From Neolewinella lacunae (lineage in GTDB: Bacteria; Bacteroidota; Bacteroidia; Chitinophagales; Saprospiraceae), in the NCBI RefSeq assembly GCF_014349155.1, contig NZ_JACSIT010000040.1, forward strand, positions 62,001 through 126,000: DNA of 64,000 nt. The letters are read 5' to 3'. Positions 3,009 to 6,956 of the stretch are shown here, in pieces (positions within the stretch are counted from its first letter, which is position 1; each line of letters starts with the position of its first letter). The translations under genes were made by a program, and so were the position numbers. Below the pieces are notes generated by a model that was not told where the DNA came from, searched no databases, and saw only the letters and a program-made list of their open reading frames with translations.

Positions 3009-4196
3009 TTAAGGAGCGGTGGAGAGCCGGGCCAGGGCCTCCGCCAGCCGGGTTTCCGTAGCACAGAGGCTGATGCGCACGTACTCCCGCCCCGCGCTAC
3101 CGAAGATGCCGCCCGGCGTCAGAAAGACGTCGTTGGCGTACAAGGCGGCGTCGCTGACCGCGTATCCGTCTTGGCCGGTCGGACAACGGGCCCACACGAA
3201 AAGACCCACCTGCTCGGGGTCGTACGCGCAGCCCAGGGCGTCCATGATGCGCATGGCCAACACCTGCCGCCGCCGGTAGTGGCCGTTGAGTTCGTCGTAC
3301 CAGTCCTGGCCCAAGTCCAATGCTACAACCGCGGCTTCCTGAACGGGTCGGAACATTCCACTGTCCATGTTGGATTTGAAGCGGAGTACGGTGTTCAGGT
3401 ATTCCCTTGCACCTGCGAGCGCGCCCACCCGCCACCCCGCCAGATTCTGGGCCTTGCTCAGGGAGCTCAACTCGATGGCCACCTCGCGGGCCCCGGGGAT
3501 GGCCAGCAAACTCTGCCGCGTTTCCGTGAGGATGAACGCGTAGGGGTTGTCGTTGACCAACAAGATGCGCTTGCGGCGCGCGAAGGCGATCAACTCTTCA
3601 AAAAAACCGGCCGGAGCCACCGCGCCCGTGGGCATGTGCGGGTAATTGACCCACATGATGCGCACGCGGCTGAGGTCCTGGGCCTCCAGGCTGGCCAGGT
3701 CGGGCAACCAACCACCCTCCGCACTGAGCTCGTAGGGGCGCACCACGCCACCGGCCAGCTCCGTCGCCGAGCGGTACGTGGGGTAGCCCGGGTTGGGGAC
3801 GAGCGCCTCGTCGCCCGCGTTCAAATAGGCCATGCTGATGTGCATGATGCCCTCCTTGCTGCCGATGAGGGGCAGGATCTCCGCCTCCGGGTCCAGGTCC
3901 ACCCCAAAGTAGCGTTGGTACCAGCGGGCGAAGCCCTGCCGCAGTTCGGGCCGCCCCGTGTAGGGCTGGTAGCCGTGGGCGGCGGGGTCTTGGGCGCCCC
4001 TAGCGAGAGCGGAAATGACCTCCGGCGCCGGGGGTAGGTCCGGACTCCCAATGCCGAGGTTGATCACGTCGTGCCCGTCGCGTTGCAGCTGGGCGAGCTC
4101 GCGCAGCTTGGTGCTGAAGTAGTACTCCTGCACGTCGCCCAGGCGCTCGGCCGTAGGGATGATGGGTTGCAGAGAAGATTTCGTTAGCGTAGACAT
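3009..4196 (-). CDS. PLP-dependent class I aminotransferase (aromatic operon)
   Basis: A 395-residue fold-type I aminotransferase. Start set at MSTLTKSSL, because the 21 residues upstream are basic and unlike the family. The PLP lysine is in SSLSKAQNLAGWRVG. INLGIGSPDLPP near the N-terminus, WVNYPHMPTGA and NDNPYAF (cofactor-binding Asn/Tyr) are typical of the aspartate / LL-diaminopimelate aminotransferase subgroup. Position between pheA and tyrA implies that it transaminates phenylpyruvate and 4-hydroxyphenylpyruvate (or prephenate) with glutamate as amino donor. That substrate is inferred from context; sequence alone cannot separate aromatic from aspartate or DAP specificity. The gap to pheA is 11 nt. 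Confidence 0.92.
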   Translation of the reverse strand: MSTLTKSSLQPIIPTAERLGDVQEYYFSTKLRELAQLQRDGHDVINLGIGSPDLPPAPEVISALARGAQDPAAHGYQPYTGRPELRQGFARWYQRYFGVDLDPEAEILPLIGSKEGIMHISMAYLNAGDEALVPNPGYPTYRSATELAGGVVRPYELSAEGGWLPDLASLEAQDLSRVRIMWVNYPHMPTGAVAPAGFFEELIAFARRKRILLVNDNPYAFILTETRQSLLAIPGAREVAIELSSLSKAQNLAGWRVGALAGAREYLNTVLRFKSNMDSGMFRPVQEAAVVALDLGQDWYDELNGHYRRRQVLAMRIMDALGCAYDPEQVGLFVWARCPTGQDGYAVSDAALYANDVFLTPGGIFGSAGREYVRISLCATETRLAEALARLSTAP

Positions 4197-4207: not shown

Positions 4208-5059
4208 TTAGGGCTTTTCGCCGGCGGCGTAGACGCCCAGGATGCGCAGTTCGGTACACAGTGGGCGGATGGCCTCCAGGGCCTGCTCCAGAGAGATGTT
4301 CCCCTCCAGCAGAAAATCCACGTGGAAGCGGTACTGGAACGGCCGCCCGATGATGGGCGCACTCTGGATTTTGGTGAGGTTGACCTGGTAGGCGGCCAAT
4401 ACCATCAATACTTTGTAGAGGCTGCCGGATTCGTGGCTGGTCGCGAAGCTGAGGCTGACTTTATCGCCCGCGTCCTGCCGGTGGTCGCGCCCCCGCTCCA
4501 GAACCAGGAAACGGGTGTGGTTGAGTTTGTTGGTTTCGATGCCGGGGGCCAGGATGTCCAGTCCGTAAAGTTCGGCGGCCGTAGCGCTGGCCACGGCGCC
4601 GCGGGTGGGGTCCTGCAGCTCCGTGACTTGCCGGGCGCTGAGGGCGGTATCGGCGTCTTCGATGAGTTTGATGCGGGGCCAGGGCTTGAAAAATTCGCGG
4701 CACTGGGCCAGCGCGACGGGGTGGGAATGCACGACGCGGAGCTGGGAGATGTCCGTGCCCGGCAAAGCCATCAGGTTGAGGCGGATGCGGAGGTACACCT
4801 CGGCGGTGATGCGCAGGTCGGCCGTTTGGAGCAGGTCGTAGTTGGCCATCAGGCTGCCGGCCAGGGTGTTCTCAATGGCCATCAGGCCCAGGTCGCTCTG
4901 CCCGGTTTCTACTTGTTCCACCACGTCGGCAAAGGTGTGGGCCGGCACCGTCACCACCCGCCGGTCGGCAAAGTGCTGCCGCGCCGCCGCCTCGTGGAAA
5001 GCCCCCGCGTAACCCTGTATGCTAACCCTTAGTTGTTCCACTTCCGTTATCGTTTCCAT
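4208..5059 (-). CDS. pheA: Prephenate dehydratase
   Basis: A 283-residue monofunctional prephenate dehydratase: prephenate to phenylpyruvate, the committed step to phenylalanine. The periplasmic-binding-like catalytic part covers about residues 11-190 (GYAGAFHEAAA, ENTLAGS, HSHPVALAQC, and NHTRFLVL with the catalytic TRF motif). A C-terminal ACT domain follows, with SHESGSLYKVL in place of the usual ESRP phenylalanine-binding motif. It is the first structural gene of the aromatic operon and lies directly downstream of a leader peptide and terminator hairpin, so transcription is probably controlled by attenuation. ACT-mediated feedback is likely but not proven by sequence. Confidence 0.95.
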   Translation of the reverse strand: METITEVEQLRVSIQGYAGAFHEAAARQHFADRRVVTVPAHTFADVVEQVETGQSDLGLMAIENTLAGSLMANYDLLQTADLRITAEVYLRIRLNLMALPGTDISQLRVVHSHPVALAQCREFFKPWPRIKLIEDADTALSARQVTELQDPTRGAVASATAAELYGLDILAPGIETNKLNHTRFLVLERGRDHRQDAGDKVSLSFATSHESGSLYKVLMVLAAYQVNLTKIQSAPIIGRPFQYRFHVDFLLEGNISLEQALEAIRPLCTELRILGVYAAGEKP

Positions 5060-5070
5060 AGTAGAGGGGT

Positions 5071-5107
5071 AAAAAAAAGTGGTCCCGAAGGCTTCGGGAC
5101 CACTTTT
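5071..5107 (-). terminator. Rho-independent terminator/attenuator hairpin before pheA
   Basis: Read on the minus strand, GTGGTCCCGAAG pairs with CTTCGGGACCAC, the stem is extended by A/T pairs, and a run of eight T follows. It ends 12 nt before the pheA ATG and begins 27 nt after the leader peptide stop. Being inside the leader rather than after a gene, it fits a conditional terminator. A possible competing pairing is GGGAC, in the last leader codons, with GTCCC of the 5' terminator arm; it is only 5 bp, so the antiterminator is not settled by eye. Confidence 0.9.
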
Positions 5108-5133
5108 TGCAATGCTTCTTTCGAGTCATCAGC

Positions 5134-5199
5134 TTAGCGTCCCTTGCCCGGGGGGCAAAAGTAAAAGCCGTACCAAAAGTAAAAATTGCGATTAATCAT
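5134..5199 (-). CDS. Aromatic-rich attenuation leader peptide (21 aa)
   Basis: A short minus-strand ORF of 21 codons plus TAA. It starts MINRN, then runs FYFWYGFYF at residues 6-14, then CPPGKGR. Eight of nine consecutive residues are aromatic (4 Phe, 3 Tyr, 1 Trp), which is what a ribosome-stalling leader sensing charged tRNA-Phe and tRNA-Tyr should look like. The ATG follows an A-rich stretch (GGAAAACG), as is usual in this phylum. A perfect TTGCCC/GGGCAA inverted repeat overlaps codons 14-19, so ribosome position would decide whether it folds. It lies 92-165 nt downstream of nothing else but its own promoter and upstream of the terminator and pheA. The function is inferred from architecture; stalling has not been tested. 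Confidence 0.88.
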   Translation of the reverse strand: MINRNFYFWYGFYFCPPGKGR

Positions 5200-5234
5200 C
5201 GTTTTCCGTTTCGCAAGATACGCCCTTGCAAGGG

Positions 5235-5265
5235 CAAACCTACGGTAGGGGTTCGAAACTACAAA
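5235..5265 (-). promoter_or_regulatory. Bacteroidota-type promoter for the aromatic operon leader
   Basis: On the minus strand, TTTG (5265-5262) is followed after exactly 19 nt by TAGGTTTG (5242-5235). This matches the Bacteroidota -33 TTTG / -7 TAnnTTTG consensus in both boxes and spacing. The expected start of transcription is around 5228, about 30 nt before the leader peptide ATG. The first RNA bases would form a small GCAAG/CTTGC stem-loop. GCCCTTGCAAGGGC at 5235-5222 is a 14-nt palindrome overlapping the start site. Confidence 0.82.
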
Positions 5266-5373
5266 ATGTTGTTTGGGCAAGGGTTTTTAAATATTCTCCC
5301 CCCGCCCAAGCGCCGGGCTCCGACGGACCCTGCCAATGACGAAAACGACCGGGTTTGGCGCTAGCTGCAAAAG

Positions 5374-5500
5374 CTACAGAAACGAAAACATCCGATTCCA
5401 ATGGACGGTAAAAAACGAAAACGTCGGGTTCCACCTGGCGCTGGTTAAACGAAAACGTCGGGCTTACACCCGACGCTACGCTTGGCCCCTCCAGGGCCGG
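5374..5500. repeat. Cluster of AACGAAAACGTCGGG repeats (intergenic)
   Basis: Three tandem copies of a module beginning AACGAAAAC(G/A)TC, at about 5374, 5414 and 5448. The third continues into an ACCCGACGCTACG and GGCCCCTCCAGGG segment. An inverted copy of the full third module lies at 7035-7085, on the other side of the acyltransferase gene. No gene is seen between the promoter at 5265 and this block or within it. Confidence 0.75.
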
Positions 5501-5609: not shown

Positions 5610-5692
5610 CTCGCCTATCCCGTGCGGTAGCCCATTCACGCATTAGCTACGCTGCTGCCTACGGCGGTCACGCATTCGCTCATTCACGCATT
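5610..5692. repeat. Dispersed TAGCTACGCTGCTGCC-type repeat
   Basis: About 80 bp containing TCTCGCCTATC, GTGCGGTAGCCCATTCAC, TAGCTACGCTGCTGCC, TACGGCGGTCACGCATT and CGCTCATTCACGCATT in order. The same order recurs at 13030-13106, with fragments at 12748-12786, 12960-13010, 49654-49680 and 56040-56060. It lies just before the acyltransferase gene and contains no plausible gene. Confidence 0.75.
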
Positions 5693-5723
5693 GACTACCT
5701 TCGCCCCGCCCACCCCACTCCCC

Positions 5724-6956
5724 ATGCTTTACCACCTCGTCCGCCCGGTTGCCCGCTACGTATTGCGCCATTACTACCGCAACATCGACCTCACCGGCCT
5801 GGAGCAGATCCCCCCGGGGGCGGCCGTTATCCTGGCGGCCAACCATCCCACAGCCTTCATCGAGCCCTGCATTCTGGCCTGTTTCCAGCCCCGCACCCTG
5901 TGGTTTCTGGCCCGGGGCAACCTGTTCAAAAACGGCATTTTCACCTTCCTGCTCAATGCCCTCAACATCTTGCCGGTTTTCCGCCGCGAAGACGGAGGCT
6001 ACGAAAAGCTGAAGGTCAATTTCAGTACTTTCGACGCCTGCTACCGCGCCCTGAGCAGAGGACGTGCCCTGATGATCCTGGCCGAAGGGCGCACCATCCA
6101 CGAAAAAGACCTCCGCCCCCTGCGCAAGGGGACGGCCCGCATCGCCCTGGGAGCCCTGGACAAATACAACACCCTGCCGGAGGTCTACATCGTCCCCGTG
6201 GGAATCAACTTCACCCACGCCGACCGCATTCGCAGCACCGTCATGCTCCGCTGCGGAGAGCCCATTCTCGCCTCCGAATACCTCGCGGCCTACCGGGAGA
6301 ATGAAGCCATTGCTATTCGCGACCTCACCCTGCACCTGCGGCAGCGCCTCGAACCCCTCGTCGTTCGCTACCCCAGCCGCCTGCACGCCGACCTCGGCGA
6401 AGCGGAACTGGAACTGGACCGCAGCAACCACGCCACCCACCTCCGCCACGGCATCACCCATTTCGGCGACCAGCTGAACCGCGAACTGGCCCTGGCCAGC
6501 GAAGCCCCCGCAGCCGCCCCCGCCCTGAGCCGCTACTTCCACCGCCTGGCCACCAACGGCCTGACCGACGCCGCCCTGGCCGGAAATTACCGCAAAGACC
6601 GCCAAATGCCCGCCACCGAATGGGCCAAAAGCCTCCTGGCCGGCCTCCTCTTGCTGCCCCAAATCCCCCTCTGGCTGCTGGCCGAAGCCATCGCCGCCAG
6701 CCAACCCAAACACATCGAATTTTACAGCCCCGTCCGCTTCGCCGTAGTGGCCGGCGGCACCTTCCTGCTCTATCCCCTGGCGCTGCTGCTCCTGCCCTGG
6801 CTAGGCAAAGCCTGGCTGCTGGCTTCCCTGCTCAGCGTCGGCTGGGCCATCCGCAAACTCGAACGCCTCCAACGCTGGTACGCCAACCGCAAAGTCGAAC
6901 GCATGGTCGAGCAGGAACGGAGCATTTTGAGGGATTGGCGGAAGGCCCTGGAATAA
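5724..6956 (+). CDS. PlsC-type lysophospholipid acyltransferase
   Basis: A 410-residue protein starting at the ATG of MLYHLVRPV; an in-frame TTG 33 nt upstream lies in repeat sequence and is less likely. It carries the acyltransferase motifs of 1-acyl-glycerol-3-phosphate acyltransferases: AANHPTAFIEP (catalytic His, with Glu where Asp is usual), VFRREDGG, LAEGRTIHEKDLRPLRKG, and VPVGINF. Two hydrophobic stretches near the C-terminus (about residues 340-390) suggest membrane attachment. Family members transfer acyl groups to lysophosphatidate or related lipids at the inner membrane. The roughly 150 residues after the catalytic domain are typical of the long Bacteroidota version. The exact acceptor is unknown. 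Confidence 0.9.
   Translation: MLYHLVRPVARYVLRHYYRNIDLTGLEQIPPGAAVILAANHPTAFIEPCILACFQPRTLWFLARGNLFKNGIFTFLLNALNILPVFRREDGGYEKLKVNFSTFDACYRALSRGRALMILAEGRTIHEKDLRPLRKGTARIALGALDKYNTLPEVYIVPVGINFTHADRIRSTVMLRCGEPILASEYLAAYRENEAIAIRDLTLHLRQRLEPLVVRYPSRLHADLGEAELELDRSNHATHLRHGITHFGDQLNRELALASEAPAAAPALSRYFHRLATNGLTDAALAGNYRKDRQMPATEWAKSLLAGLLLLPQIPLWLLAEAIAASQPKHIEFYSPVRFAVVAGGTFLLYPLALLLLPWLGKAWLLASLLSVGWAIRKLERLQRWYANRKVERMVEQERSILRDWRKALE

Follow-up and report, generated by a model that had tools for sequence, protein, structure and literature searches.

The sequence upstream of pheA in Neolewinella lacunae is best read as a leader-peptide transcription attenuator that would sense charged tRNA-Phe and tRNA-Tyr together, a reading to which we assign a probability of about 0.9, and translation of the leader most likely decides transcription of the pheA operon. 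The kind is a textbook one, leader-peptide attenuation being already known; the points worth following are the class-wide form, the geometry and the doubling of the Phe/Tyr attenuator. Comparison with relatives makes it probable, at a lower level of confidence, that Bacteroidia have their own class-wide pheA attenuator in which one leader serves both Phe and Tyr and the antiterminator is placed by the last Phe or Tyr codon regardless of the stop codon, that in part of the class two such units stand in series behind a single promoter, and that operon and unit have spread together into other classes of the phylum. A hunch from a single sequence thereby becomes a testable family, with Phe/Tyr attenuation in a major bacterial class found in the environment and in the gut.

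Layout of the pheA leader

The locus was analyzed within a stretch of 64,000 nt (the window), in which the following features were placed.

5280-5262, minus strand: block TTGCCCAAACAACATTTTG, ending in the -33 TTTG (genus alignment)
5265-5262, minus strand: TTTG, the -33 element of a Bacteroidota-type promoter that as a whole reads TTTG-N19-TAGGTTTG (5265-5235)
5242-5235, minus strand: -7 box TAGGTTTG, following TTTG after a 19-nt spacer
5199-5134, minus strand: leader peptide ORF MINRNFYFWYGFYFCPPGKGR plus stop, 21 codons, conserved among relatives
5184-5158, minus strand: control codons 6-14, FYFWYGFYF (translation of the leader ORF)
5158-5144, minus strand: hairpin P, TTGCCC (5158-5153)/GGGCAA (5149-5144), over codons 14-19
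5143-5136, minus strand: antiterminator segment A, GGGACGCT (duplex with B, covariation over 70 genera, ribosome-walk folding)
5108-5071, minus strand: intrinsic terminator, 16-bp stem, loop GCC, eight T
5104-5096, minus strand: segment B, AGTGGTCCC, common to the antiterminator and the 5' arm of the terminator (folding, covariation)
5059-4208, minus strand: pheA, prephenate dehydratase (best NCBIfam matches, under curated cut-offs)
4259-3009, minus strand: open frame of a PLP aminotransferase (best NCBIfam matches, under curated cut-offs)
3064-2105, minus strand: open frame of tyrA, prephenate dehydrogenase (NCBIfam NF006307, over cut-off)
2105-1032, minus strand: DAHP synthase-chorismate mutase fusion (best NCBIfam matches, under curated cut-offs)

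The first-pass annotation had described a promoter, a 21-codon leader, a hairpin, an eight-T terminator and pheA, all of which were confirmed on the minus strand; it named no antiterminator, and the A:B segment is added here. The ATG of pheA (5059) sits 11 nt past the terminator end, and the gene order behind the attenuator is pheA-aminotransferase-tyrA-DAHP synthase/chorismate mutase. The four-gene Phe/Tyr operon headed by pheA, likewise proposed at first sight, holds up in NCBIfam profile matches, among which tyrA alone passes its curated cut-off while the other three genes are named by their best matches; by these matches the genes downstream of the leader are those of Phe and Tyr synthesis, as expected behind an attenuator for these amino acids. 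The true start of the aminotransferase probably lies near 4196 and that of tyrA probably inside the open frame 3064-2105. A relative of this aminotransferase is found downstream of pheA in 46 of 53 loci, the N. lacunae locus counted.

Eight of nine residues in the control stretch are aromatic, which is the clustering of product codons typical of an attenuator. In a census of start-to-stop ORFs encoding 8-45 aa, taken over the 64 kb in both orientations, the leader was the sole one of 2219 short ORFs with 8/10 aromatic residues; the runners-up were four hits (two places with two starts each) with 6/10. The 173-nt leader RNA folds with a z of -5.9, and the fold of the terminator (-23.8 kcal/mol in the window) has a z of -6.5, with 0 of 200 shuffles equally stable. 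Its outer A-U pairs borrow from the T tract; a generic terminator scan misses 5108-5071, where the stem runs into the T tract.

The promoter is shared by all seven genomes of the genus; a generic scan that does not cover Bacteroidota promoters misses it at 5265-5235. Across the relatives described below, a TAnnTTTG box occurs no more than 120 nt ahead of the leader in 42 of 70 genera, compared with 2 of 70 for a control stretch 180-300 nt upstream (shorter in some). The block at 5262-5280 is invariant at 17 of its 19 positions in 7/7 genomes of the genus in the alignment; it reads TTGCC-NN-AACAACATTTTG, is kept in all seven at the -33 element, and may serve as a regulator site or as an extension of the promoter. 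A pattern search with TTGCCNNAACAACATTTTG in the N. lacunae genome returned one exact match, at the pheA locus, and three matches with two mismatches. At the predicted transcript start, a perfect palindrome, GCCCTTGCAAGGGC, occupies 5222-5235 and lacks conservation within the genus. In 19 of the 42 box-bearing genera (e.g., L104, L067, L071 and L049), TAnnTTTG ends 0-10 nt before the leader ATG, and judging from this distance such leaders may be translated from nearly leaderless RNA.

In the proposed mechanism, a transcript beginning near 5228 would contain a short ORF with many Phe and Tyr codons. With Phe and Tyr ample, the ribosome would pass the aromatic codons and cover A, and the terminator would form. 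With either amino acid short, the ribosome would stall on the Phe/Tyr codons with its front edge about at A and would open the P hairpin formed by those codons; A could then capture B, and the polymerase would read through into pheA-aminotransferase-tyrA-DAHP synthase/chorismate mutase.

Conservation across relatives and the amino acids probably sensed

Of 198 genomes searched in the order, 97 had a PheA match, and in the phylum 257 of 296 did. The sample consisted of the 600 nt upstream of pheA in 165 distinct genomes: 90 of the order, after six weak or partial matches and one full match near a contig end (G022) were left out of the 97, and 75 others added from the 257 matching genomes of the phylum search, 20 of them selected manually to broaden the range of families outside the class. 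A leader ORF in which 6 or more of 10 consecutive residues are aromatic was present upstream of pheA in 122/165 genomes, compared with 11/165 on reverse strands and 139/3300 in shuffles. A terminator was located for 120 of the 122 leaders, two assignments being doubtful. After L044 and L069 (no terminator by script) and, by hand, L042 (terminator mis-assigned) and L074 (leader doubtful) were dropped, the set comprised 118 loci with 112 distinct peptides from 70 genera. An ATG-start leader followed by the intrinsic terminator that attenuation calls for is found in 118 of 165 genomes and on none of 165 reverse strands, and the scores of the terminators of the 70 genera were reached by 2 of 1400 shuffles.

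Conservation of the short ORF in relatives, on which the initial reading had staked itself, is evident: the leader is carried by 29/30 genomes in the own family and 73/90 in the order, by 44 of the 48 sampled from the rest of the class, and by 5/27 from other classes of the phylum. The 17 of 90 order genomes without a leader, chiefly from two families (8 of 13 and 5 of 5 without), are a point against the attenuator reading. Of the 80 best named loci, taken from 565 confirmed matches and representing partly the same organisms, 73 carry a leader; the bearers include Phaeodactylibacter, Chitinophaga, Hymenobacter, Parabacteroides, Dysgonomonas, Alistipes and Prevotellamassilia.

The five leader-bearing loci from other classes are L032, L034, L039, L047 and L052. 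In a midpoint-rooted tree without support values their PheA nests among Bacteroidia PheA, which suggests that operon and attenuator may have been transferred together, with misassigned contigs as the alternative. A further locus, L031, also has such a PheA but no leader; it shares its best ORF and tree neighbor with L249, Candidatus Thermochlorobacter aerophilum.

In the best 10-residue windows of the 112 distinct leaders, F accounts for 44%, Y for 32% and W for 2.6% (29/1120) of residues; the corresponding values for 53 PheA proteins are 4.2%, 3.5% and 0.54%. Although the leaders were selected by aromatic density and not by the presence of both F and Y, both occur among the last six cluster codons in 112/112, and W is present in the best window of 29/112; joint sensing of Phe and Tyr is therefore the conserved signal. 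This supports the original proposal that one leader senses the two amino acids together, and the accompanying "perhaps Trp" finds no conserved signal behind it. An attenuator sensing all three aromatic amino acids is unlikely: the window leader does contain one Trp codon and W is more frequent in leader windows than in PheA proteins, but 83 of 112 distinct leaders have no W in the best window, and the trpE-type genes of the family (best TIGR00564 matches, all under cut-off) have their own Trp leader, with at least 3 Trp in 10 residues in 25 of 30 loci compared with 1 of 30 on the reverse strand.

The same data bear on whether the terminator merely ends an upstream transcript or insulates pheA, with the aromatic ORF arising by chance or as a by-product of U-rich RNA. 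Such RNA is expected to contain UUU and UAU codons, and the terminator at 5108-5071 is not singled out by a generic scan; however, the C-ending codons TTC and TAC make up 334 of the 960 Phe/Tyr codons in distinct leaders, the nearest identified gene upstream (5691-6956) lies on the plus strand and points in the direction opposite to pheA, and the ORF and terminator occur together far beyond the reverse-strand control given above. We regard this explanation as very improbable.

Position and pairing of the proposed antiterminator

In the window, the A:B duplex has an energy of -11.2 kcal/mol, and by sequence A:B and the terminator are mutually exclusive. Taken alone, this pairing is not significant (shuffle p 0.27; in a second shuffle test, z -1.24 with 23/200 shuffles equally stable), so the antiterminator claim rests on the relatives. 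The covariation search for an antiterminator, which the first-pass annotation had suggested, supports the A:B pairing across 70 genera. Compared with shuffles, A:B is significant (p ≤ 0.05) in 95 of 118 loci and falls short of this level in 23. With each of the 70 genera represented by one locus, the mean energy of A with its own B is -12.7 kcal/mol, compared with -8.8 kcal/mol for A with the B of other genera, and the own-B mean was reached by 0 of 5000 permutations. For the median genus, 10% of foreign B arms form a better duplex with A than the own arm does; against the claim, this share exceeds a quarter in 17 of 70 genera.

The position of A follows the aromatic codons. With the last aromatic codon set by a gap rule (at most 3 residues, later 4, after Flavobacterium-like leaders had been seen) that was fixed, as was the A window, after inspection of the same loci, the first pair of A is found 13.8 ± 3.2 nt downstream of the first base in the last Phe/Tyr codon; the spacing in shuffled sequences is 25.6 ± 14.9. 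Strong complementarity to B is limited to 22-nt windows starting 0-14 nt past that base, and windows 10-40 nt before or at least 20 nt past the last aromatic codon reach about -1 to -3.5. The stop codon was also considered as the setter of the antiterminator position and was rejected, as the first pair of A lies -11.4 ± 11.1 nt from it, a scatter of ±11.1 compared with ±3.2 nt. According to the relevant passage of a published account, a ribosome covers up to 12 nt downstream, a value stated for the stop codon (PMC4833913); given the spacing of 13.8 nt, A therefore starts about at the edge of a stalled ribosome. The fixed distance from the last codon to A amounts to a quantitative prediction of the edge of the stalled Bacteroidota ribosome and implies coupling of transcription and translation in Bacteroidota.

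To follow the leader codon by codon, a folding model was used that hides RNA under and behind the ribosome, and a B-pairing score was calculated as the expected number of B bases paired upstream out of up to 10, averaged over genera. The score is 0.78-0.86 as long as the A site has not passed the last aromatic codon (from 8 codons ahead of it up to the codon itself), and it declines to 0.55, 0.31 and 0.17 at 1, 2 and 3 codons past it and to 0.16 at the stop codon (computable in 51 of 70 genera). Two results of the model are points against. Without a ribosome the score is 0.71, with B still paired upstream, and in the window B is free at codons 17-18 and partly re-paired at codons 19-22; these alternative pairings are weak (-1.9 to -3.7 kcal/mol), far under the energy of the terminator. 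Taken over the 70 genera, covariation, spacing and the folding model point to an antiterminator whose formation is incompatible with the terminator and hinges on where the ribosome stands.

The P hairpin is real. In the genus alignment its pairs, judged by eye, change together (TTGCCC/GGGCAA, TTACCC/GGGTAA, TTACCG/CGGTAA), and compared with a synonymous-codon null it has a mean z of -1.26, equals or betters the median of the null in 65 of 70 genera and attains p ≤ 0.05 in 21 of 70. A longer form, CUUUUGCCC:GGGCAAGGG, which uses the UUU of a Phe codon, overlaps segment A. The short form adjoins A:B, and both can form together without exclusion, which is a point against the attenuator reading; P is taken as either a hairpin opened by the stalled ribosome or a pause signal.

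The least probable explanation of all is that attenuation for Phe/Tyr rests on a T-box, a riboswitch or an RNA-binding protein and that the ORF is incidental, as these systems do share a terminator with alternative pairing but no Rfam family reaches its gathering score in the loci of 20 relatives, the window stretch has only sub-threshold matches, and the position of the alternative helix is set by the last aromatic codon. In the window, Rfam RF01859 (Phe_leader) scores 20.2 bits against a gathering score of 55. No T-box is among the four Rfam matches up to E 5 for window positions 4900-5500, nor was one detected at gathering score in the 20 relatives' loci; hence no Rfam family fits the loci tested. 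Matches near the region to Vax2os1, snoU25 and Acido-Lenti-1 were below thresholds and were rejected.

Tandem units, known systems and other amino-acid leaders

In 12 of 165 genomes, pheA has a pair of leader-terminator units ahead of it, one after the other; 11 of these genomes belong to the own family, which contributes 30 to the sample. The N. lacunae locus has one unit only. The family loci are L008, L009, L010, L011, L012, L013, L015, L020, L023, L024 and L101; L072 and the named loci L230, L276, L278, L281, L291 and L294 are further cases. In 25 tandem loci chosen for having two leaders (11 from the named set), both terminators were present in 24, and the 60 nt ahead of leader 1 contained TAnnTTTG in 19 of 25, those ahead of leader 2 in 0 of 25, so that by their sequence the two units apparently stand behind one promoter. 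The spacing of A is 14.9 ± 2.5 nt in unit 1 and 13.3 ± 2.8 nt in unit 2, with A:B pairing at p ≤ 0.05 in 19/24 and 19/25, respectively. Tandem forms offer a clean test case for two sensors of the same amino acids in series.

The E. coli pheA attenuator (pheL) likewise has clustered codons for the end product followed by a mutually exclusive antiterminator and terminator before pheA. Its leader is generally described as having codons for Phe but none for Tyr and as preceding pheA alone, whereas the N. lacunae leader mixes F and Y and is followed by a four-gene Phe/Tyr operon. Single leaders that respond to several amino acids of a common pathway are familiar from ilvGMEDA and thrABC of E. coli; the N. 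lacunae leader would similarly be a multi-amino-acid one, although the amino acids and operons differ. A 2004 survey by Vitreschak and colleagues reportedly names Bacteroidetes/Chlorobi.

The initial remark that attenuators of this kind are far better documented in Proteobacteria is fair, but Bacteroidota cases are in print (PMC1173090, PMC9723704). For Flavobacterium psychrophilum, passages of a 2021 study report clues to leader peptides at amino-acid operons and a structured 5' element at pheA that is conserved in other Flavobacteriaceae genera (PMC9723704). This element resembles that of N. lacunae in belonging to a Bacteroidota pheA and having no Rfam hit, whereas the main-text passages on it contain no peptide, statement on joint Phe and Tyr sensing or antiterminator (PMC9723704). 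In Bacteroides thetaiotaomicron, the operon pheA > hisHb > aroA-aroQ > tyrA, with the same gene set in nearly the same order, was listed in 2005 under a putative attenuator taken from a database of predicted attenuators, with no leader peptide described in that part of the source (PMC1173090, Table 7). Small ORFs reminiscent of leader peptides are also mentioned for this species in part of another account (PMC7366714). Tandem attenuators with two short ORFs in series in one leader are described for Salmonella mgtCBR (PMC3641672); the pheA leaders of some relatives similarly carry two short ORFs in series, with the difference that both share Phe/Tyr codons and each has its own terminator. In a literature search confined largely to the main text of open papers, no published account of joint Phe and Tyr leaders, of the A spacing or of tandem Phe/Tyr attenuators in Bacteroidota was found.

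Leaders for other amino acids occur in the own family. Upstream of hisG, a His-rich leader (at least 3 His in 10 residues) was found in 23 of 24 loci compared with 2 of 24 on the reverse strand. Loci of TIGR00118 (ilvB) yielded no clear leaders; ilvD, which lies upstream of ilvB in the N. lacunae genome, was used instead, and at least 8 Ile/Leu/Val residues were present in 11 of 30 loci compared with 1 of 30 on the reverse strand. A single spacing for all attenuators of the family was considered and rejected, since it fails for hisG (22.8 ± 9.1 nt; 20 loci, 4 paired at p ≤ 0.05) and for trpE-type genes (24.9 ± 7.8 nt; 28 loci, 4 paired at p ≤ 0.05). The ilvD leaders do fit the spacing rule, at 13.7 ± 3.8 nt in 11 loci with pairing at p ≤ 0.05 in 5. 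The N. lacunae genome itself carries a His leader, MFHSLHHHLAMLSCPRGER (hisG, L189), a branched-chain leader, MYGLPLVVVLLVLVVILITPRRKAA (ilvD, L323), and a leader with NNNWWW (trpE-type, L368), each with a terminator behind it, and His, branched-chain and Trp leaders like these recur in the family.
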